Assembly (NCBI GenBank): GCA_017652345.1
Contig: JAGCBE010000255.1
Span: 53,477 to 117,476, forward strand
From: Methanobrevibacter sp.
GTDB taxonomy: Archaea > Methanobacteriota > Methanobacteria > Methanobacteriales > Methanobacteriaceae
DNA: 64,000 bases
Reading direction: 5' to 3'
Within the stretch, counting starts at the first letter, position 1. Every line of letters begins with the position of its first letter. Both the position numbers and the translations under genes were made by a program. This document shows positions 18,548 through 57,819 of this stretch, in pieces. The notes under the pieces are model-generated. The model was not told the origin of the DNA, did not search any database, and worked only from the letters and a program-made list of their open reading frames with translations.

Positions 18548-18601
18548 ATCATATCCATTTAAGATGAAATTACCTCCAGACCGCTGGAGGTATAAAAATT
18601 G

Positions 18602-18672
18602 CACCCTCGCAAGGACTCGAACCCTGATAGAAAGTTTTGAAGACTTTTGTCCTACCATTGAACGACGAGGGT
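18602..18672 (-). tRNA. tRNA-Trp(UCA), UGA-decoding
   Basis: 71 nt cloverleaf: acceptor ACCCTCG/CGAGGGT, D stem GTTC/GGAC, anticodon stem AAAGT/ACTTT around loop CTTCAAA, T arm CAGGG-TTCGAGT-CCTTG, discriminator G73. The anticodon is UCA (plus-strand bases 18638-18640), which reads UGA. G73 is the tRNA-Trp identity base. CCA is not encoded. It has its own promoter at 18763-18794. This explains the in-frame TGA codons throughout the window. Confidence 0.92.
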
Positions 18673-19515: not shown

Positions 19516-19695
19516 TGGTACCTCGGCTGCGATTCGAACGCAGGACCCACAGCTTAGGTTTGGTAGAAGGAATTGAACCTCCGACTCCACAGTACAAGAC
19601 CAGGTGTTCTACCACTGAAACATATACCAAACCGGTTTATTTCAGAAACCACTCTGTATGAAGGCTGTTGCTCTATCCAACTGAGCTACCGAGGC
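19516..19695 (-). tRNA. tRNA-Arg(UCU) interrupted in the anticodon loop by another tRNA-like sequence
   Basis: 5' half GCCTCGG-TA-GCTC...GAGC-A-ACAGC-CTT (19695 to 19661) and 3' half TAA-GCTGT...CTGCG-TTCGAAT-CGCAG-CCGAGGT-A-CCA (19556 to 19516) fit together perfectly: acceptor, D, anticodon (ACAGC/GCTGT) and T stems all pair and CCA is encoded. The joined loop CTTCTAA gives UCU. About 103 nt separate U34 from the following C35 and hold a second cloverleaf (19558-19631). The insert is far too small for a self-splicing group I intron. Confidence 0.75.
19558..19631 (-). tRNA. tRNA-like element nested inside tRNA-Arg(UCU)
   Basis: Acceptor TTTGGTA/TACCAAA, extendable to 9 bp, D stem TGTT/AACA with GG in the loop, and T arm GGAGG-TTCAATT-CCTTC are good. 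The anticodon region CTGGT-CTTGTAC-TGTGG pairs poorly; if the loop is CTTGTAC the anticodon would be UGU (Thr). It may be a degenerate tRNA or a structural element acting as an intron in the outer tRNA. Confidence 0.55.
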
Positions 19696-30303: not shown

Positions 30304-30343
30304 AATCTATATTCTAAAAGTTATTAATTTATTAAATGATTTG

Positions 30344-30420
30344 TAACGAAGGAGGGATTCGAACCCTCAGGACTTTCCGCCGAGAACATAGAAAGATGTC
30401 TGCCTTTGCATCACTTCGTT
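30344..30420 (-). tRNA. tRNA-like element with enlarged anticodon loop
   Basis: 77 nt: acceptor AACGAAG/CTTCGTT, D stem GATG/CATC, T arm GAGGG-TTCGAAT-CCCTC and A73 are good. Between D and T arms the only 5-bp stem is CTTTC/GAAAG around a 13-base loop, instead of 7. The anticodon cannot be assigned. It may be degenerate or need an unusual maturation. Confidence 0.5.
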
Positions 30421-30424
30421 ATTT

Positions 30425-30500
30425 TGGTGGGCCGCATAAGAATCGAACTTATTACCTCAAAAACCAAAATTTTGTGTTCTACCAAATAAACTAGCGGCCC
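30425..30500 (-). tRNA. tRNA-Gln-like (anticodon UUG by position)
   Basis: Acceptor GGGCCGC/GCGGCCC, D stem GTTT/GAAC, anticodon stem CAAAA/TTTTG with loop TTTTGGT, T stem TAAG/CTTA type, A73 and CCA encoded. Standard counting gives UUG; if the reading shifts by one it would be UGG (Pro), but a Pro(UGG) tRNA exists at 51818. A second Gln(UUG) is at 24569. Confidence 0.7.
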
Positions 30501-30536
30501 TGGGAACAATATCATATCCATCAAAATGTTCCCCAG
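30500..30536 (-). other. Hairpin adjoining tRNA 5' end
   Basis: CTGGGAACA...TGTTCCCCAG, 7 or more base pairs, reaching the first base of the tRNA at 30425-30500. Like other tRNA spacers here it has no U-tract. Confidence 0.5.
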
Positions 30537-30543
30537 TACTTTT

Positions 30544-30717
30544 GTAAAATATCTTCAGTGGTTTTAAACTAAAGCTATGTTATTGCGTTATAACGATCTC
30601 CCATGCTAACCACTACATCACTCCCCCATATAAATAAAAATTGGAGGGGGAGACGGGATTCGAACCCGCGATTAGGAGATTTATCATGATGTAATAAATT
30701 CCCCACTGATATTTTAC
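30544..30717 (-). repeat. Inverted repeat flanking the permuted tRNA
   Basis: GTAAAATATCTTCAGTGG at 30544-30561 and CCACTGATATTTTAC at 30703-30717 are complementary: 15 bp with a 3-base bulge. In RNA this helix would close the precursor outside the anticodon stem, bringing the two ends of the permuted tRNA together, as a splicing substrate would need. Confidence 0.65.
30597..30679 (-). tRNA. Circularly permuted tRNA (3' half precedes 5' half)
   Basis: On the minus strand the 3' half comes first: TCTCC-TAATC-GCGGG-TTCGAAT-CCCGT-CTCCCCC-T-CCA (30679 to 30642). After a 14-base AT-rich spacer comes the 5' half: GGGGGAG-TG-ATGT-AGTGGTTA-GCAT-G-GGAGA (30627 to 30597). Acceptor GGGGGAG/CTCCCCC (7/7) and anticodon stem GGAGA/TCTCC (5/5) pair only across the two halves. 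Flanks 30544-30561 and 30703-30717 pair too. Neither half has another partner nearby. U73 suggests Gly or Cys; the anticodon is unknown because the loop depends on how the ends are joined. Confidence 0.7.
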
Positions 30718-30827
30718 GTTGACACTAAAACTAAAGCTTTTGACCCAATGCTAAATCTAATTATCTCGGATTTGTCATGCTGAATCTTAAGCTAAAGCTT
30801 TGGTCAATATATTTTTTATTTAATTAT

Positions 30828-32042
30828 TTACTCTACAGAAAGAGTTAAAATGGCGCTTCTATCTGTTTCTACGTTTCCAGTAGCATCCATTTTTGTGTTA
30901 ACAGTAATTCTGTCAGCGTTAATTCCATATTCGCTAACAAGAACATTCTTAACAACGTTGGCACGATTCTGAGCAAGAGCAAAATTGCGCTGTTCAGTTC
31001 CAGTCTTTGTATCTGCAGAACCTACGATCTGAATTAAAGTATCATTATCGAGACTTTCTGCAAACAGTCCGACCTTCTGTCTTTCAACAGTGGAAAGTGC
31101 ACAACTACCAATAGGGAATGTGATTACAGTACTACCAACAAGTACTCGAGTATCACCCTTAATCATAACCTCTTTAGTTACAGGAACTTCTTTAACAACT
31201 TCCTTAACTTCTACAGGACGATTCTTAAGAGCATCTCTCTCAGCTACAACTGCATCATAATCAGCACGAGTAACTTCGTAAGGACAAAGAACAAAATTAT
31301 GAGAATTCTTATTCTTTGAACCAAACTTATAAGTTACACCAACCTGAACGTTTGCACGAGCATCACTCATGAAACGAGGAAGAGACTGATACTGAGTCTT
31401 AGTATACTTATTGAACCACATTACACCAGGACGAACGTTAATTTGCCATGCACGAGCTTTACCAAGATTAATATTAAGCTCAGCACCAGCATTATAAACT
31501 ACATAATCCTTATCAGTAGGGATTATATCGTCCGTATAAGGGTTGGTTCCAGATACAACGGGGAATTCCTCTCCCATTGCTGACGGCCTAGATGTATAAG
31601 TCTGAGTAGAACTATTAATGTAATCGTGTCCCCAACCCATTCCAAGAACGCCAACTACTTCTACTCTACGGGGCTGACCCTTATAACCTCCAAACCAGTT
31701 GGAGAAGTTGAGTTTACCATTTGCAAGAACTGCACTCTCATCAATAAATGTCTGAGATGTAGTTGTATTATAAAATGCTAGTCCTTCAACGGAGAAACCA
31801 ACCACAGGTGTTACATACTTGCCAAATTCCAATCCAGCAAAAGGACGAACACCATTTGCTACACCCTTAGCTCCATCCCAGAAGAAAGGAGTGGGAACCT
31901 GATTAAAATGACCTGTAGTAACACCTCCACCTACAAGGGTAACATAGGTGTTTTCAAAAAGACGACTGCTTTCAACAGTCTGTGCACCTGCTAATGTAAT
32001 CATTAACAAAGATGCAACAATAAAACTAATAAATTTCCTCAT
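30828..32042 (-). CDS. OmpA-family outer membrane protein
   Basis: 404 aa. Signal peptide residues 1-20 (MRKFISFIVASLLMITLAGA). Residues 25-240 alternate like an 8-strand OmpA beta-barrel (YVTLVGGGVTTGHF, then VRPFAGLEFGKYVTP). Residues 255-285 form a short helical linker, and residues 295-404 are an OmpA/MotB peptidoglycan-binding domain (VGSADTKTGTEQRNFALAQN). It resembles Bacteroidetes host OmpA proteins. On a phage it could alter the surface receptor or block superinfection; that is inference. TGG used for Trp. Confidence 0.9.
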   Translation of the reverse strand: MRKFISFIVASLLMITLAGAQTVESSRLFENTYVTLVGGGVTTGHFNQVPTPFFWDGAKGVANGVRPFAGLEFGKYVTPVVGFSVEGLAFYNTTTSQTFIDESAVLANGKLNFSNWFGGYKGQPRRVEVVGVLGMGWGHDYINSSTQTYTSRPSAMGEEFPVVSGTNPYTDDIIPTDKDYVVYNAGAELNINLGKARAWQINVRPGVMWFNKYTKTQYQSLPRFMSDARANVQVGVTYKFGSKNKNSHNFVLCPYEVTRADYDAVVAERDALKNRPVEVKEVVKEVPVTKEVMIKGDTRVLVGSTVITFPIGSCALSTVERQKVGLFAESLDNDTLIQIVGSADTKTGTEQRNFALAQNRANVVKNVLVSEYGINADRITVNTKMDATGNVETDRSAILTLSVE

Positions 32043-41214: not shown

Positions 41215-41288
41215 CCCGAGATTAAACATGGCTCTTTATCTCGGTGTGATAACTTAAAGCCATCTCCGTTATCACTAAGCTTACTTTG

Positions 41289-41360
41289 TGCGTCATGCAG
41301 GATTCGAACCTGCATAAAACTGGTTTAGAAGCAGCTGCCTTACCAATAGACTAATGACGC
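41289..41360 (-). tRNA. tRNA with anticodon CUA (amber-reading)
   Basis: Acceptor GCGTCAT/ATGACGC, D stem GTCT/AGGC, T arm GCAGG-TTCGAAT-CCTGC, A73. The anticodon arm is GCTGC-TTCTAAA-CCAGT: four of five pairs with a C-C mismatch next to the loop, anticodon CUA. It could decode UAG, yet TAG acts as a stop in this window, so it may be an inactive, timed or cross-reading tRNA. Amino acid unknown. Confidence 0.7.
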
Positions 41361-41927: not shown

Positions 41928-42075
41928 AATTTTTATAGTTTTTAAATTAAATAATCTTCATTCTTTTAATCCAAAGTACTATAAAAATTTAAGGAGGATC
42001 AGTAAATACAATCTAGTGTCGCATAATAACAAATTTTAAAATTAAAGAATAAATAATTAGGTACATAACACCCTG

Positions 42076-42614
42076 TGACCCCGGCGGGGCTCGAACCCGC
42101 GACCCCGACATTAACTTACCACTATAGTTTTCACTACCAGATAGGCGCCTATCTCCTATTTTCGAGCTCCCTACTGTTTTACCAGTCTATACTGCAGGCT
42201 TTATATTCTGTTTGATGGTCTGGACTCTATCTTAACCATATTGAAATCTTGCAAGATTACGAATGGGCTGTCTGATTTTCTATAGCGGCAGATTATGCAC
42301 CGCTTCCCTTAGCCAGCCTATTACATCTGGCTCCTCGTAAATTTCAACTTAGGTCCCTCCTGTATAGTCTCTACACACTGTCTATAGCTCCGACTTTTAT
42401 TTTCTGAACTCTTTCGAGATGTCATCCTTGCTAATAACATTGGCTCGGTATCGGCATGGTTGTGTTTCAGTAGCAAGCATCATACTGATATAGTAGCTCA
42501 CAACTTTAGCTTTCACCGAATTAGGGAGGTTCTACTTCTAACATTTCTGCTAGAGCACTCTTATGTTGTAAAACAAGCAAAAGTGTCGTGCTCTACCTAC
42601 TGAGCTACAAGGTC
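42076..42614 (-). tRNA. tRNA-Lys(UUU) with a group I intron
   Basis: 5' exon 42581-42614 (GACCTTG-TA-GCTC...GAGC-A-CGACA-CTT) and 3' exon 42076-42114 (TTAA-TGTCG-GGGTC-GCGGG-TTCGAGC-CCCGC-CGGGGTC-A). Joined loop CTTTTAA gives UUU. Acceptor has two G-U pairs. The intron begins after U34. Confidence 0.85.
42115..42580 (-). other. Group I intron in tRNA-Lys(UUU), no ORF
   Basis: 466 nt. Contains group I core elements on the minus strand: CTAATTCGGTGAAAGCTAA (P3/P4 region), GTGTAGAGACTATAC (R/P7) and TTAAGATAGAGTCC (S/P7'), and ends in G (omega G). Insertion after U34 matches the two tRNA-Leu introns in the window. No reading frame of note. Confidence 0.85.
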
Positions 42615-42629
42615 GATCCATTTATTTTA

Positions 42630-43133
42630 TTATTTTTCTAGTATTAATGAAAGTTTATCATTAAACGTACCATCCTGAATAGCAACTAGCATATCATCAT
42701 GCCAACGAAAAGTTCCTTCTTTTCCGAGTGTTTTAAGGTATTCATAAACAGTACGACGATGTTTCTCAGGGATAGCTTTCCAAACGATATCACGCTCTTT
42801 CATCTTCCTTACGGACTCTCTATGTTCCTCGATGGTGCCAAAATCATTGTGCTCACGTCGTTTGAGAAATGGTTCGAGCCATTCCTTCTCGAACATTTCC
42901 CAGTTGTCAATAATACCCTCTCTCAGCATAGTACTAAGTTCGTGTGCTTGGTTGCATGACTCAAACTTGTATATGTGCTCGTCATCAATTAGCATGAATT
43001 CACCAATATCCGATGTACACATAATTCCAACACCGAGACCACGTGCGTATTCAGAGGTCCACGGATCAAGACTACCACTACTGCTACTTCTGAACTCAAT
43101 TTTGTGTCCGTCAAATTCTACTGTGTGGTACAT
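42630..43133 (-). CDS. Unknown protein, 167 aa
   Basis: Start at MYHTVEFDGHKIEFRSSSSG. Acidic, alpha/beta; GC-richer, and TGG for Trp. Lies between two intron-bearing tRNAs. Ends TAG. No family recognised. Confidence 0.7.
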   Translation of the reverse strand: MYHTVEFDGHKIEFRSSSSGSLDPWTSEYARGLGVGIMCTSDIGEFMLIDDEHIYKFESCNQAHELSTMLREGIIDNWEMFEKEWLEPFLKRREHNDFGTIEEHRESVRKMKERDIVWKAIPEKHRRTVYEYLKTLGKEGTFRWHDDMLVAIQDGTFNDKLSLILEK

Positions 43134-43444
43134 ATTATCAAAATAATTTAAAACATAATATTTTAATTGTGGGCTTGGCGGGACTCGAACCCGCACGCCT
43201 TCGCGGCACCAGTTCCTCAAGTTTGTAATTAACTTGGACTATGTCTTAACCATATCTTTCGACTTAGGTTGGAAGTGTATAGTCTCTACACATTTATAAA
43301 TATAATTACCTTGGGTGCGACCCAAACCACCTCTATATTATATAACCATACTGATTTGTACAGCCCTGATATTATATAATCCTCCTCATTATATTTAATT
43401 TAGCTCGGCGTTATTATCATTTAAAGGCTGATACCTTCACCGAA

Positions 43445-43951
43445 TTAGCTTCCTTCTACTTCAATCGTTTCCAATTGAGCACTCATTACCTTACCTGAAT
43501 AATTATTTGTAAGAGCATGACAATTAGGACAAAGAATCTGTAGATTTTCCAATCTATTATCTGTGTGAATTCCATTTAAATGATGCAGTTCTAATGGAAT
43601 AGGTTCATCCATTCATTCAGATTTACCACAGCGTTCACATTTATATTCTTTTATTCCTTCTTTTAAGAGTCTATTTCTAATATTATGTGAGGTTCATCCA
43701 GAATTCTCTATTAAAATTTCAGAAATGTCTTTTTTCTTAATAGATGGATGATCACTACTAGTAAGACCTTTATTTCATCTTGCTCCTGTAAAATGACTTT
43801 TATCCAGATTTAAATCTTCAATTTTCTTCTTTACGGTATTTAAATTTCCACCTTTTGGAGAAATACCGATTTTTCTACAAACTTCTGCATAAGATTTAGA
43901 ATCTTTAACAGCTTGTTTTAATTGTTCTTCTGTGTATTTTTTACTTGCCAT
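43445..43951 (-). CDS. Intron-encoded HNH homing endonuclease, three in-frame TGA
   Basis: 168 aa. N-terminal MASKKYTEEQLKQAVKDSKS looks like a DNA-binding repeat also found in the 47687-48202 nuclease (HFTGARWNKG versus HFTGQGWNKP). HNH core: CERCGKSEW, LELHHLNGIHTDNR, LQILCPNCH. It would spread the intron into intron-less tRNA-Leu genes. TGAs give GARWNKG, NSGWTSH and SEWMDE. Own promoter at 43973-44004. Confidence 0.85.
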
Positions 43952-43972
43952 AACATTAATTATTTTAATACA

Positions 43973-44004
43973 CAAAGATAAAAAGAAAAATTGAATATTA
44001 CAAA
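43973..44004 (-). promoter_or_regulatory. Promoter for the intron HNH gene
   Basis: TTTG (44001-44004), 20-base spacer, TATCTTTG (43973-43980) on the minus strand, 22 bases before the HNH ATG and inside the 5' part of the intron. It allows nuclease expression apart from tRNA transcription. Confidence 0.75.
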
Positions 44005-44044
44005 TTATTTAAGACTGGCGTGTCTACCGTTCCACCACAAGCCC

Positions 44045-44161
44045 TTTCAAACAGCCTAACAGTGCTCCTAGAGAATTACCTCGTGGACTGTCGCCATGAC
44101 GGGGGCCCGCCTCCAGTGGCTCAGGGTTCCTGGTTTGCTGTTTCTCCTAAACCCTTTTTGA
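44045..44161 (-). other. GC-rich spacer between ClpP and tRNA-Leu(UAG), no gene seen
   Basis: 117 bases with self-complementary blocks (minus strand ACAGCAAACC near one end, and CCTGAGCCACTGGAGGCGGG, GCCCCCGTCATGGC within). Unlike the AT-rich surroundings. Possibly a structured spacer or small RNA; no ORF. Confidence 0.4.
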
Positions 44162-44812
44162 TTATTTATTGTATGACACAATATTATCTACACAACCATA
44201 CTCTTTTGCTTCCTCAGCGGTAAGCCAAAAGTCTCTTTGACTATCTTCTATGATTTTTTCAACAGGCTGTCCAGTATGTCTTGATAGAATGTTATAAAGA
44301 GTTTCCTTAGCATGATTAATGTGATTAACATCAATAGTCATATCTGCAGCAGTTCCATAAGTTCCACCAGAAGGCTGATGAATAAGAACTTGTCCATTCG
44401 GAAGAATTCTTCTTTCTCCTTTTGAACCTGCACAAAGTAAAACAGATGCCATTGATGCAGCCATTCCAGTGCACACCGTTTTTACAACTGGTTTTACAAT
44501 TTGCATTGTGTCATAAATTGCAAGACCATCTATAATAGATCCACCTGGAGAATTAATATAGATCGTAATTGGATCATTATTAATTGCTTCCATGTAAAGA
44601 AGTTGTGCAGTAATGATATTTGCAACTTGATCATCTATTTCATCTCCAAGAAAGATGATTCGGTTCTTCATCAATCTTGAAAAGATATCGATTGGAGCTG
44701 AAAAAGATTTACTCTCTTCCAGAATCATAGGGTTTTGGAAACCCTTTAGTACATAATCATTTAATACCAAAGGGTTTACCTTACCTCTACTAAAAAGATT
44801 AAAACCTCTCAT
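44162..44812 (-). CDS. clpP: ClpP-like serine protease
   Basis: 216 aa. Catalytic triad in context: Ser in GMAASMAS (about residue 120), His in LIHQPSGG (about 145), Asp in SQRDFW (about 195). Also IYINSPGGSI. Self-compartmentalised protease needing an AAA+ unfoldase; the adjacent AAA+ gene at 44815 is a candidate partner, or host ClpX. TGG for Trp. In phages ClpP-like proteins may also mature capsids. Confidence 0.92.
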   Translation of the reverse strand: MRGFNLFSRGKVNPLVLNDYVLKGFQNPMILEESKSFSAPIDIFSRLMKNRIIFLGDEIDDQVANIITAQLLYMEAINNDPITIYINSPGGSIIDGLAIYDTMQIVKPVVKTVCTGMAASMASVLLCAGSKGERRILPNGQVLIHQPSGGTYGTAADMTIDVNHINHAKETLYNILSRHTGQPVEKIIEDSQRDFWLTAEEAKEYGCVDNIVSYNK

Positions 44813-44814
44813 TT

Positions 44815-46269
44815 TTAATCTTTGTAATCATCACGTTCAACGTCCCAGTGCTCTTCAATAATCTGAAGAATAGGTTCGACTTTGCTGAGCTCAGAAGTAC
44901 CCAGTACCTCACGAAGAGCCTTAACCAATCTCTCAGGAGGAGTTTCAGTAACATCCTTCTTCTGAGCAAGAGCGACCTGTCTCTGATAAGACTCTACACT
45001 TGCTTTGATATGGAAAGGAGTTACCTTATTATCATCCATAAAGATGAGCTTGGACTTGGCAGATTCAACGATTTCGGCCATAAATGCAGGAGCAATTCCA
45101 GCACCTTCGATATATTTGTATACATCGGTAAAGTCTCCATCGAGAATATATCCTTCCTTTTCAGTGAAGGATGCCTTAATGAACTTTTCAGCAGTCTCTG
45201 CATCCAAGCAGTCCATAGTGATCACAGAACCGATTCGCTTACCACGAAGGAAAGTCGGTTCAATGAGTTCGATGTGATTAGTTGTAAACAACGTAATCAC
45301 GTTAAGGTCCTTCGTATCACCACCATCCAGGGTATTGAGAATATCCTGGAGTTTGGCATCACGATTTCCTCTGGTAACCTGGTCAATATCTTCAACAAAT
45401 ACGACCACGCCATAACCAGAACGATCAATTACCTGACACATTCTGAGAACTTCAGCGAGAATCTCAGGATTCTTCAGGTAAATAAATGCCCAATTGTGAG
45501 CAACTGCATCTTTTGCAAGCTTAAAAGCATACAAAGTCTTACCAGTACCATACTTACCTTCTAGTAAGCAACCGTACTTAAGAGGAATTCCCTTCTGAAT
45601 ACACTTCTCGGGATAGAAAATTCTGGAACGAAGCGGCTGAAGTTCAAACTCAGTCTTCTGAGAGAGAACCATAAGCTGCTTATCAATGCCATCAAGATTC
45701 ATAATCTTGGGCTCATTGATGTCTGTGATTTCAAGAATCTGATTCTTATAAATCGATTCTGTTGCGAGAAGCTCCTTAGTTCTAGCAATGATGTCATCCA
45801 TCAAAGACTGGAACTTGTATTGGCACTTACCTTTTACTTCCAAACGATGTTTGTCAGCGTCATAGGCAATGGAGATAGAACTCCCTTCACCCAAATCGCT
45901 CATATCGATTGTACCATAAGGAACTTTCGTTCTGGTACCATCAGCTAAGATGATATCCAGAGTTTCAATAGGAGTTTCACCACCACTCGGCTGTGAATCC
46001 TGCTTTGCTCTTGCAACACCGAAAACTTCAGTAATTGCTTTGTTCAGCTGATAAGCGCCATCAGATTTCCAACACTTAATAGTGTAACGGAAATTAGACA
46101 TTTTCTTAGATTGCTCAATTTCATTTTCGATAAAATTGAGAACATCTGCGTATTTCATCTTACCAGAGCACACAGCGATGATTCGAGCTTTCTGCTCTTC
46201 CTCAAAACTATGAGCCTTCTGTCTGATAACACTCGACACGCCTTTATTAGGACTTGTTTGAGTTTCCAT
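44815..46269 (-). CDS. AAA+ ATPase next to ClpP
   Basis: 484 aa. Helical N-terminal domain (residues 20-60 coiled), beta-rich middle, then AAA core: Walker A GKYGTGKTL near residue 240, Walker B VVVFVEDIDQ near 285, sensor LFTTNHIELI and LRGKRIG. Two bases separate it from clpP, suggesting co-expression. I do not see the IGF-type ClpP-docking loop, so an unfoldase role is a hypothesis. No TGA; TGG for Trp. Confidence 0.82.
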   Translation of the reverse strand: METQTSPNKGVSSVIRQKAHSFEEEQKARIIAVCSGKMKYADVLNFIENEIEQSKKMSNFRYTIKCWKSDGAYQLNKAITEVFGVARAKQDSQPSGGETPIETLDIILADGTRTKVPYGTIDMSDLGEGSSISIAYDADKHRLEVKGKCQYKFQSLMDDIIARTKELLATESIYKNQILEITDINEPKIMNLDGIDKQLMVLSQKTEFELQPLRSRIFYPEKCIQKGIPLKYGCLLEGKYGTGKTLYAFKLAKDAVAHNWAFIYLKNPEILAEVLRMCQVIDRSGYGVVVFVEDIDQVTRGNRDAKLQDILNTLDGGDTKDLNVITLFTTNHIELIEPTFLRGKRIGSVITMDCLDAETAEKFIKASFTEKEGYILDGDFTDVYKYIEGAGIAPAFMAEIVESAKSKLIFMDDNKVTPFHIKASVESYQRQVALAQKKDVTETPPERLVKALREVLGTSELSKVEPILQIIEEHWDVERDDYKD

Positions 46270-46276
46270 AATAGTC

Positions 46277-46537
46277 TTAATCTTTTATTTTACTAATATT
46301 CTTTTTAATGCTATATAAGTTTTCTTTCGTAGTAGTTAAACAACCCATATCAACAGTAGTTTCAGAAAGTTTAATCACAAGATTTTTTTCTGGAACTTCT
46401 ACTCGATCTGCATTGTTTCTTAATGCCTCTAACATTATATGTAAAGGCAATACTGTATTCTTACAGAATACATAATCTTTTTCGGGTATATAAAGTACGT
46501 CATGCCCTTCAATTTGCCCTACAACAATCTTCTCCAT
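46277..46537 (-). CDS. Unknown protein, 86 aa
   Basis: Start at MEKIVVGQIEGHDVLYIPEK; a longer frame would enter tRNA-His. Contains NLVIKLSETTVDMGCLTT. Typical small phage protein, no family recognised. Confidence 0.65.
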   Translation of the reverse strand: MEKIVVGQIEGHDVLYIPEKDYVFCKNTVLPLHIMLEALRNNADRVEVPEKNLVIKLSETTVDMGCLTTTKENLYSIKKNISKIKD

Positions 46538-46547
46538 ATCTAATAAG

Positions 46548-46620
46548 GTTGACGTGTGGAATTCGAATCCACATAAACTAGAGCCACAATCTAGCGCATT
46601 ACCAATCTGCCAACGCCAAC
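46548..46620 (-). tRNA. tRNA-His(GUG)
   Basis: Acceptor TTGGCGT/ACGTCAA with encoded G-1 opposite C73, the His hallmark. D stem GCA/TGC, anticodon stem CTAGA/TCTAG with loop TTGTGGC, T arm GTGGA-TTCGAAT-TCCAC. No CCA encoded. Confidence 0.92.
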
Positions 46621-46623
46621 ATG

Positions 46624-46692
46624 TTAAATGTCGTCTTTTGGAATCAGAAACCAAGCAATACCTAAGATTGCAATAAATAAATACTTAATCAT
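46624..46692 (-). CDS. Putative membrane peptide, 22 aa
   Basis: MIKYLFIAILGIAWFLIPKD, a single hydrophobic helix, then TAA. Very short; supported by position between genes only. Confidence 0.3.
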   Translation of the reverse strand: MIKYLFIAILGIAWFLIPKDDI

Positions 46693-46867
46693 TGGTAATT
46701 AATAATAAATCATTGTCATTAACTGGATCACCTGGTTTTGTTGATAACAATCCACATATTACGCACCAAGACACACCATACTTATTTGTTCGTATCCTGT
46801 GTTTGCTCTTGTTGCAATTCCTGTCCAGAAGTATCTGGTGTTGTTCCCTTGTTATCGATTTCATCAT
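46685..46867 (-). CDS. Small Cys-containing protein, 60 aa
   Basis: Residues 28-42 (RTNKYGVSWCVICG) resemble small zinc-finger-like Bacteroides proteins; with an upstream Cys/His a zinc site is possible. Overlaps another short frame (46782-46895). Confidence 0.5.
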   Translation of the reverse strand: MMKSITREQHQILLDRNCNKSKHRIRTNKYGVSWCVICGLLSTKPGDPVNDNDLLLITND

Positions 46868-46895
46868 CCCAAAAGTAAATGTGTTCGTCTTTCAT
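46782..46895 (-). CDS. Small acidic protein, 37 aa
   Basis: MKDEHIYFWDDEIDNKGTTP, Gln/Thr-rich tail, TAA. Its ATG overlaps the TAA of the next upstream gene, which supports it; overlaps 46685-46867 in another frame. Confidence 0.4.
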   Translation of the reverse strand: MKDEHIYFWDDEIDNKGTTPDTSGQELQQEQTQDTNK

Positions 46896-47122
46896 TATAA
46901 TTCTAATGTAAAAACTTCGTTTCCATCCTCAACGTTGAATTCGCCAAGGTTTTCACAAAGTCCTTTTAGTAAAAAGTGAAACCATTTAGGATTCACTTCA
47001 GGAAGTTTATTATAAATTTTGTTGAAAAAATTGAGTTTATCTTCATAAGATAAACCAACTTCAGAAACCCCATCCACTTCAATGTTATCTGAAATGGAAT
47101 TTGAAACCATTTTAATTATCAT
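46895..47122 (-). CDS. Unknown protein, 75 aa
   Basis: Contains YEDKLNFFNKIYNKLPEVNP and ends EDGNEVFTLEL. Helical. Start could be Met 1 or Met 5. No family recognised. Confidence 0.6.
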   Translation of the reverse strand: MIIKMVSNSISDNIEVDGVSEVGLSYEDKLNFFNKIYNKLPEVNPKWFHFLLKGLCENLGEFNVEDGNEVFTLEL

Positions 47123-47361
47123 TACAAATAATCTTTAGCCCTTTCGGATTCAACAAAAAATGAGAAATTAGTATTCTCCTTAGTTGATAATTGTTCACAA
47201 ATAACCATCGGAGAATTGTCATAGTGAATTTTCTTTGTAATCACTTGACTACAAATGTTACTAAAAGCACACATATCACAATACTGATCTGGCTCATCAC
47301 CAATAACATATGCGTACTCTTTGTCTTTCCATTTAACAAATTTGTTTACTCTCTTTGCCAT
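47122..47361 (-). CDS. Small Cys-rich protein, 79 aa
   Basis: MAKRVNKFVKWKDKEYAYVI; CDMCAFSNIC and a later ICEQL suggest metal binding, a pattern common in Bacteroides phage proteins. TGG for Trp. Confidence 0.65.
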   Translation of the reverse strand: MAKRVNKFVKWKDKEYAYVIGDEPDQYCDMCAFSNICSQVITKKIHYDNSPMVICEQLSTKENTNFSFFVESERAKDYL

Positions 47362-47383
47362 ATTTAATAAATAAAAAGAAAAA

Positions 47384-47411
47384 GTTAGGAGAACGATGCT
47401 AAACTCCTAAC
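47384..47411 (-). terminator. Rho-independent terminator
   Basis: GTTAGGAG/CTCCTAAC, 8 bp, followed on the minus strand by TTTTTCTTTTTATT. It ends the transcript carrying tRNA-Leu(UAA). Confidence 0.85.
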
Positions 47412-47686
47412 TCGCAACGTCAAACCTGTGCCTATAGAACGCACCGTTTTTTAACCTCAACAAAAAAGAAAATGGTGCCCCAGGCCGGAGTCGAACCGGC
47501 ACAGCCGTTTCGGGCCGAGGGATTTTCTTGCTACTCTATGTTACCATAGCCAATCTTATGATTGTTGTAGTCTGGACTATGTCTTCTCCATGCATTACTG
47601 TTTAGGAGGCTGGTATATAGTCTCTACACATTTATGTACTTACGTACAATTTAGCTCGGCGTTGTCCTAATAGGATATTCACCGAA

Positions 47687-48202
47687 TTAGCCAGCATTCA
47701 CTTCAGAACTTTCATTCTGAGTGCTCTCAATAGATCTAATTTCTTTCCTTTTACAAAAACTATGTGTTTGTGAATGACAGTTAGGACAAAGAATTTGAAG
47801 ATTCTCTAATCTATCATCACAAGGATTTCCATTCTTATGATGTAATTGTAACGTAATTGGTTTTCCGTTTCAATCTACACACCCACAAATTTCACATTTG
47901 TTCTCTTTCAAATTATGGTTTAAAACAACTTCTTTTGTTTTAGAACTAGAAATTCTTTTTTCGTGTATACAAAGTCTTTTAGATAAATCAATATTTCCAG
48001 CAAATTTAGGATGCCCAGGTTTATTTCAACCTTGTCCTGTAAAATGAGAAATATCAACTCCAAAATTTTCACATCTTTTTTGTATACTAGAATAATTACC
48101 TCCAGTTTCTTTTAAACCAAATTTTTGTAACATCTGTCTTATAGATGTACACTCTTTTGCAACATTTTCCAAAAGTTCTTTTGTATATTTTCTATTTGCC
48201 AT
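47687..48202 (-). CDS. Intron-encoded HNH homing endonuclease, two in-frame TGA
   Basis: 171 aa. N-terminal MANRKYTKELLENVAKECTS parallels the 43445-43951 nuclease; HFTGQGWNKPGH then zinc CEICGCVDW, HNH LQLHHKNGNPCDDRLENL and LCPNCHSQ. TGAs give GQGWNK and VDWNGK. Own promoter at 48231-48262. Likely homes into tRNA-Leu anticodon regions. Confidence 0.85.
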
Positions 48203-48230
48203 AATTAAAACTTTAATCGTTAAACATGTA

Positions 48231-48262
48231 CAAATATACAAAATTATTTTGAAAATGGCAAA
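48231..48262 (-). promoter_or_regulatory. Promoter for the intron HNH gene
   Basis: TTTG (48259-48262), 20-base spacer, TATATTTG (48231-48238) on the minus strand, 28 bases before the HNH ATG, within the 5' part of the intron. Confidence 0.75.
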
Positions 48263-48344
48263 CTTAAAGAAAAAAATCTTTCTGTCTACCTTGAAAGTCC
48301 CTTGTGTCTACCATTCCACCACTAGGGCGTTTTATTAATTGAAG

Positions 48345-48418
48345 TGGGACAGGTGGGAGTTGAACCACACGACACGTGGATTTTCAGTCCACTGCTCTAC
48401 CACCTGAGCTACTGTCCC
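48345..48418 (-). tRNA. tRNA-Phe(GAA)
   Basis: Acceptor GGGACAG/CTGTCCC, D stem GCTC/GAGC, anticodon stem GTGGA/TCCAC with loop CTGAAAA, A73. T stem pairs as GTG-GG/CCCAC with one bulged base. Confidence 0.88.
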
Positions 48419-51173: not shown

Positions 51174-51263
51174 TGGGAATTGGGGGATTCGAACCCTCTT
51201 ACCCTAAACCAATACGTCACTGTTAAAGGGACGGGTTTTACAGACCCGCGACGATAAATTCCC
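51174..51263 (-). tRNA. Unusual tRNA-Tyr(GUA) lacking a D arm
   Basis: 90 nt. Acceptor GGGAATT/AATTCCC, anticodon stem CGGGT/ACCCG with loop CTGTAAA (GUA), T arm GAGGG-TTCGAAT-CCCCC, A73. Only 8 bases join acceptor and anticodon arms, so no D arm fits, while 35 bases lie between anticodon and T arms, including CCCT...AGGG. The homing nuclease gene at 51263-51661 ends on its first base. Confidence 0.65.
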
Positions 51264-57183: not shown

Positions 57184-57217
57184 TGGAGAAGATGGGATTC
57201 GAACCCACGACCTCCTA
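57184..57217 (-). tRNA. Orphan tRNA 3' half
   Basis: T arm GTGGG-TTCGAAT-CCCAT, acceptor strand CTTCTCC and A73, preceded by TAGGA that could be an anticodon-stem strand. No matching 5' half adjoins; the best candidate is the orphan 5' half at 57893-57924 (acceptor 6/7, anticodon stem 4/5). The HNH gene at 57215 starts the gap. Confidence 0.45.
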
Positions 57218-57727: not shown

Positions 57728-57819
57728 GGTAAGTCGGGATTCGAACCCGAAAAGACACATTGCTCGGGTGTCCGTACTCCGTAGAAGCTCTCGCCGTGCA
57801 TTCCTTCGCGTCGCTTACC
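57728..57819 (-). tRNA. Degenerate class II tRNA-like element
   Basis: 92 nt with acceptor GGTAAG/CTTACC, short D stem CGC/GCG, GACAC/GTGTC as a variable-arm-like stem and T arm CGGG-TTCGAAT-CCCG. No convincing anticodon stem. Probably a decayed tRNA or related RNA; amino acid not assignable. Confidence 0.4.

Follow-up and report, generated by a model that had tools for sequence, protein, structure and literature searches.

Algal and archaeal tRNA genes of the permuted kind have the 3′ half first and an intervening sequence of 1–74 bp, and their bulge-helix-bulge (BHB) motif is cut by the tRNA-splicing endonuclease; the same account proposes a circular intermediate, which RNase P and tRNase Z would open (Soma, 2014, PMC3978253). 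The gene described here lies in a 64-kb stretch of DNA, analysed over its whole length (the window), and is like those of that account in having the 3′ half first and a short intervening sequence (14 bases). The class of phage genes to which it belongs is also like the red algal genes treated there, with the break found at various positions of the cloverleaf. Unlike the algal and archaeal genes so described, the window gene has no BHB motif but a long outer helix, no endonuclease gene was found in 19 carriers of the class (the searches are given below), and the setting is that of phages of bacteria. Another point of comparison is provided by the Lak phages, in which tRNAs have enigmatic introns, one of them possibly encoding a tRNA (Devoto, 2019, PMC6784885). 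These are likewise broken genes that need joining, and Lak phages also hold a homologue of the window element; however, the breaks are described there as introns, and the main text of that paper never uses “permut”. GOLLD is a phage RNA found near tRNA islands, with a linker that sometimes holds tRNAs, according to PMC12286853; neither the window nor the two Lak loci searched gave a match to it (Rfam RF02032).

Permuted order is also a property of the two-piece (permuted) tmRNA (Rfam RF04321), with a spacer between the CCA and the 5′ end. The window gene is similar in order and spacer, but it has no G3-U70, A73 or convincing tag, and its D arm is normal. The open-access literature that we searched contained no report of phage permuted tRNA genes; the ones it describes come from algae and archaea.

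The original prediction placed the gene in a phage genome, and the window is indeed phage DNA: among its proteins, one that is GroEL-like, several AAA proteins and others match phage families. Clp protease, SPFH protein and an adenylosuccinate synthetase-like protein were also matched, and ARAGORN called 24 ordinary tRNAs. The unit runs from 30717 to 30544 on the minus strand as outer helix, tRNA 3′ half with CCA, spacer, 5′ half and outer helix, together with the following neighbours:

30722–30806, minus strand: hairpin element upstream of the unit, conserved and with homology to Lak phages, TTGACCAAAGCTTTAGC ... GGGTCAAAAGCTTTAG
30703–30717, minus strand: 5′ strand of the outer helix, GTAAAATATCAGTGG, partner of 30544–30561
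30681–30694, minus strand: TTACATCATGATAA, directly 5′ of the 3′ part, with TAYATCATGA common to window and Lak
30642–30680, minus strand: tRNA 3′ part, ATCTCC-TAATC-T arm-CTCCCCC-T-CCA, found by the scanner and supported by covariation
30675–30680, minus strand: 3′ strand of the anticodon stem
30670–30674, minus strand: variable loop
30653–30669, minus strand: T arm
30646–30652, minus strand: 3′ strand of the acceptor
30645, minus strand: U73
30642–30644, minus strand: CCA
30628–30641, minus strand: spacer, ATTTTTATTTATAT, 14 bases, AT-rich, weakly conserved in Lak
30596–30627, minus strand: tRNA 5′ part, GGGGGAG-TG-D arm-G-GGAGAT, found by the scanner and supported by covariation
30621–30627, minus strand: 5′ strand of the acceptor
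30603–30618, minus strand: D arm
30596–30601, minus strand: 5′ strand of the anticodon stem
30562–30595, minus strand: downstream flank between the 5′ part and the outer helix, carrying AGCTTTAGTTTAA, Lak counterpart AGCATTAGWTTAA
30544–30561, minus strand: 3′ strand of the outer helix, CCACTGAAGATATTTTAC, from the fold and Lak covariation
30425–30500, minus strand: ordinary tRNA-Gln(TTG), immediately downstream of the permuted unit, called by ARAGORN and Rfam

The arrangement claimed at the outset, a 3′ half with U73 and CCA placed before the 5′ half on the minus strand and separated from it by 14 bases, was thus recovered both from the sequence and by the scanner. The cross-half pairing also held: the acceptor (7/7) and the anticodon stem (5/5, or 6/6 counting the next pair) form only between the two halves. 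The outer helix is of 15 bp as claimed, with a 3-nt bulge (AAG), and its score was reached by 1.9% of swapped flank pairs. The break of the window unit is parsed at 31|32, at the anticodon stem/loop, the same position as in L106 and in one unit of L127. Joining there gives an 8-nt loop (ATGATAAA), otherwise a 6-bp stem is required, and 63 of 112 trial joins were called as tRNAs with many different anticodons. The element at 30681–30694 may contain the anticodon loop. A tRNA-Ile(GAT)-like product is possible, although U73 and the Lak loops speak against certainty.

The scanner seeks a T arm, a 7-bp acceptor and a D arm in permuted order. In its strict form it gave a single match over both strands of the 64-kb window, whereas simple shuffles, 546 kb in one run and 1.3 Mb in another, yielded no match. 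A looser setting gave one more, at 18.6 kb, with six acceptor pairs, without CCA and overlapping a normal tRNA. The permuted gene itself was missed by ARAGORN and, at the gathering threshold, by the Rfam tRNA model. Folding places the permuted region 4.4 SD below dinucleotide shuffles, with none of 200 as low. Within the window there was no further copy of either half beyond T-arm-sized matches, nor a normal-order copy of the same tRNA, which had been named beforehand as the mark of a rearranged relic. Chance or artefact is ruled out by the shuffles, by the covariation in Lak phages and by the recurrence of the arrangement. None of the group I P7 core motifs searched in 30400–30960 was found, and a permuted group I intron was rejected because the flanks have none of them; these motifs do appear in the three group I-like introns that the window holds elsewhere. 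The silence of Rfam on group I is weak evidence, because it (E ≤ 0.1) lists none in 42000–48400 either, despite the group I-like introns there.

Among 50,697 phage records, those of Lak included, BLAST with the sequence of this region gave no match. Only a covariance model built on the permuted core reached Lak-C1 (MK250029), with 47 bits, and BLAST with the Lak-C1 locus retrieved 15 records of Prevotella Lak phages, giant phages of the gut, six with at least 99% and nine with ca. 81% identity. Window and Lak have in common the permuted unit and ca. 90 upstream bases (blastn E 4e-13 to 5e-12, in a comparison against the window sequence alone; for Lak-B1, 4e-13 across 30707–30811), and in Lak-C1 and Lak-B1 an ordinary tRNA is located shortly downstream, as in the window. 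The window phage is a distant relative of the Lak phages. Neither the synteny of the neighbouring ATPase nor another protein query added relatives, and a Lak-derived pattern had no match in IMG/VR.

An alignment of the window with Lak-C1, A1, B1 and B2 has four distinct rows; in it, pairing was found in 97.0% of 264 cells, and 17 of the 67 pairs had changed on both sides. This pairing was matched by none of 500 shuffles, and it fell to 33–40% when the partners were slid by 1–3 columns. The double-sided changes are distributed among the outer helix (6), anticodon stem (4), T stem (3), acceptor (3) and upstream hairpin (1); there are none in the D stem, which has 3 pairs only, or in helix 1 of the upstream hairpin element, where 98.5% of cells are paired. 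The acceptors differ by lineage and still pair (GGGGGAG/CTCCCCC, GGGCGAT/ATTGCCC with one G-U, and GGGGATT/AATCCCC). The independent events are few, since the comparison covers the window and no more than two Lak lineages, yet they are spread over four expected helices. Related phages therefore keep both the permuted order and its pairing, as the original prediction would have it, and the window gene is not a relic, since it is conserved with covariation in Lak phages. The Lak units have no encoded CCA, their anticodon-loop bases (ATGATTT, ATGAATTT) are non-canonical and position 37 would be U; given these features, and the 8-nt loop and many trial anticodons of the window, this member may not decode.

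Similar genes turned out to be frequent. Two pattern scans of IMG/VR gave 147 loci, of which 72 had at least one strict permuted unit: 14 of 52 loci were true with the window acceptor fixed, and 58 of 95 new loci with four acceptor pairs fixed. They provided 95 units, or 80 clusters at 95% identity, 80 of the units with NCCA; 17 contigs were multi-unit, one of them (L127) with an array of five in ca. 1 kb, and there were no shuffled matches. The second pattern, applied to a cellular collection of 84,980 species genomes, gave a single locus with permuted units among the 119 matches listed, on a 206-kb contig of Glycomyces sp. YM15, and a stricter pattern (T loop plus window acceptor) found none in the cellular genomes. 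Judged on the cellular matches listed, the permuted arrangement looks strongly enriched in phages.

We also scanned 16 named phage records with the covariance model R1, followed by confirmation with the scanner. Confirmed units were found in phage G, Phosso, Lak-C1 and Myrna, three of which are cultured: in Bacillus phage G the unit (405241–405314) falls in the unannotated gap between gp538 and gp539, that of Sinorhizobium phage Phosso (24231–24288) is unannotated, and Mycobacterium phage Myrna (NC_011273) has two units, neither of which encodes CCA; the T stem of one of them is of 4 bp. One Myrna unit overlaps the annotated tRNA-Asp at 95152–95223; the 3′ half pairs with a downstream 5′ half, in permuted order, and the scanner finds for this tRNA-Asp no upstream acceptor partner of six or more pairs. 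A 6-pair Myrna match was rejected as two ordinary adjacent tRNAs. For those R1 matches in Atu_ph07, LR756502, Pumpernickel, SCTP-2, XacN1 and crAss001 that came with a locus, the scanner gave no confirmation, and BLAST of other units against the named phages gave short tRNA-sized stretches or nothing.

Judged by gene order, then, the circularly permuted tRNA gene of the original prediction is genuine. The picture of a single odd gene does not stand, as it belongs to a class that is widespread among phages and whose break is often outside the anticodon loop. For 83 units the parser, with which one-position ties are common, assigned 38 breaks to the variable loop, 37 to the anticodon stem (18 at 28|29 and 9 at 29|30) and 8 to the anticodon loop; D-loop breaks (L017) were also seen by eye. 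Joined in silico, 81 of the 83 units were called as tRNAs by ARAGORN against none in genomic order, a figure favoured by the choice of the best-pairing break and to be read beside the 339 of 830 mismatched halves that ARAGORN also calls. A three-base anticodon was present in 72 joined units, and nine, the window included, were called without one. U33 is found in 54 of the 73 seven-base loops and missing in 19; the other 10 of the 83 loops are not of seven bases, and parsed loops of 8 or 6 nt were noted in L070, L074, L096, L066, L098 and others.

The flanks of a unit pair better with each other than swapped flanks do. A helix score of at least 19 was reached by 65% of 79 units with their own flanks vs. 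12% of 316 with swapped ones (p 4e-21). A short motif, T[AT]C followed by AG, TG, AAG or TTCG and placed 5′ of the T arm at a distance of at most 55 nt, occurs in 48 of 81 units, where 12.7 are expected by shuffling and 13.2 in random stretches; its strict form is in neither the window unit nor 32 others of the 81. Its spacing to the break, by eye, varies by class from 0–3 nt to ca. 14 nt. Among 15 contigs of the variable-loop class the mean majority share is 0.94 for T arm plus acceptor, 0.90 for the 5′ flank, 0.79 for the 3′ flank and 0.63 for the spacer, and 9 of 25 predicted pairs have changes on both sides. A permuted tRNA-like unit was observed inside a GOLLD match (L016, 4697–5183), and L089 at ca. 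7620 resembles GOLLD by eye; from these two cases, GOLLD may embed a permuted tRNA.

As to the machinery, RtcB was found in 4 of 19 confirmed carriers (one partial), Rnl1 in 4 other carriers of the 19, and Rnl2 above the cut-off in 4 of 16. Records without a confirmed unit were left out of these counts (G020 from the list of 20 for RtcB and Rnl1; G021, G022, G024 and G029 from that of 20 for Rnl2). Phage G and Phosso have both Rnl1 and Rnl2, Lak-C1 and Lak-B1 have Rnl2, and Myrna has neither Rnl1 nor RtcB, the two searched there. Among the 11 carriers searched for all three families, 6 had at least one and 5 (G001, G005, G014, G017 and G018) had none, although these records may be fragments. 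No ligase was found by tblastn in the 64-kb window. Large phages without a confirmed unit carry ligases as well, and such genes are common there; the link between ligases and permuted units is suggestive only. The tRNA-splicing endonuclease (PF01974) was in none of the 19 carrier records, with a positive control in four archaea. By inspection, the window has no BHB motif: beside the anticodon stem there is a 2-nt bulge and a TTAT/ATAA helix, without the 3-4-3 arrangement and not kept in Lak-C1. Rfam matched no known ribozyme family at the window locus or the two Lak loci, and comparison of the flanks with known small ribozymes likewise gave no match.

We consider it rather likely, judging from sequence, that a joined tRNA is produced, by a ligase or by a ribozyme. 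The transcript would fold into a cloverleaf with its sole break at the anticodon stem/loop (ca. 31|32 in the window), the outer helix acting as a clamp on the two exon ends. Both ends would be cut, the flanks removed and the ends sealed into a circular pre-tRNA, from which RNase P and 3′ processing would excise the AT-rich spacer, leaving a linear tRNA with CCA. The sealing could be performed by a phage or host RNA ligase of the Rnl1, Rnl2 or RtcB type or, alternatively, by a small catalytic RNA that the conserved flanks would form. Joining by phage or host ligase is plausible and, within the expectation of a joined product, is the route towards which we lean, if tentatively; we rank ligation first, a ribozyme second and the absence of joining third.

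That the flanks would be a small new ribozyme that both cuts and joins, a sort of permuted mini-intron, seems to us unlikely, and this estimate is part of the expectation of a joined product. The 5′ flank of the variable-loop class comes close to T arm plus acceptor in conservation and is well above the spacer, the short motif is well over its shuffled expectation, and ligase genes were not detected in every carrier, all of which would fit a catalyst; but the spacing from motif to break differs between classes, no known family matched at the window locus and the strict motif is not in the window. A broader reading is possible, though doubtful: that a compact element of the RNA, made up of the outer helix and a UUAC-AG/UG/AAG/UUCG-CAA-type motif, would be the phages’ own BHB-independent route to permuted tRNAs, possibly a new small self-splicing ribozyme, cutting and joining precisely at many cloverleaf positions in many large phages and mostly overlooked by tRNA finders. 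Dispensing with joining is, we believe, improbable: the spacer would be removed by RNase P and 3′ processing and the unjoined halves held by the acceptor, anticodon and outer helices, in the manner of the two-piece tmRNA, and some members may then be tRNA-like RNAs with another job. Such a two-piece tRNA would be consistent with the strong and conserved outer helix, the non-canonical Lak/window loop, the Lak units without CCA and the five of 11 carriers in which the ligase families were not found. Nevertheless, 45 of the 83 breaks are within the anticodon stem or its loop, a place at which an insertion left unspliced would upset decoding, and the joined units have a three-base anticodon in most cases.

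Two other explanations are far less probable. The alanine identity of tmRNA consists of G3-U70 and A73. A permuted tmRNA would have the same gene order, and Rfam tmRNA_permuted does give 22.6 bits on part of the unit, but this is below the gathering score of 47, and the unit has G3-C70, U73 and a normal D arm. AGCWTTAG repeats, which could be read as the last codons of an ssrA tag (ALV-stop or ALD-stop), were considered and rejected, as the short ALV-stop-like codons in the flank differ by lineage, there is no clear resume codon, and G3-U70 and A73 are absent; we regard a tmRNA as very improbable. Least probable of all is a non-functional relic of rearranged tandem tRNA copies. A deletion between tandem copies could yield the permuted order, but it would account neither for the compensatory changes that Lak shows in the outer helix and in the acceptor, T and anticodon stems nor for the recurrence in arrays such as L127, and the window has no normal-order copy.

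Returning to the joined product, phages may make some tRNAs by an undescribed cut-and-join process, because Lak phages keep the arrangement and many phages have similar genes; a widespread class without detectable BHB/endonuclease machinery implies an undescribed RNA pathway of this kind. If so, phage RNA ligases would have a role beyond repairing tRNAs cut by host defence. The number of tRNAs counted in large phages probably falls short, and the cultured carriers (phage G, Phosso and Myrna) make the pathway directly testable.

The window has other peculiarities. TGA probably encodes tryptophan, because the coverage by ORFs of at least 150 aa rises from 38.5 to 56.4% of the window when TGA is read as an amino acid, and because, by our own reading, two ORFs within introns continue across TGA at places suited to tryptophan. 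A tRNA with anticodon TCA at 18601–18672 points the same way; there is also a CTA tRNA at 41288–41360. On the minus strand, a tRNA-Lys and two other tRNAs (Leu and SeC for ARAGORN), at 42075–42614, 43169–44044 and 47473–48328, have large introns with group I-like core motifs, two of them with intron ORFs by our own reading. The tRNA-Arg(TCT) at 19516–19695 (minus strand) has in its anticodon loop a 103-nt insert that is itself nested-tRNA-like (GGTTTGG...CCAAACC) and resembles the Lak tRNA-Thr intron as reported in Devoto (2019, PMC6784885). Near the permuted gene, a tRNA-Glu(CTC) call at 30343–30420 (minus strand) has an anticodon loop of ca. 13 nt between CTTTC and GAAAG and is possibly another interrupted tRNA. 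Finally, three T-arm-like stretches on the minus strand (51184–51196, 57190–57210 and 57732–57749), where ARAGORN calls no tRNA, are similar to the permuted 3′ half and are possible further broken tRNA halves.
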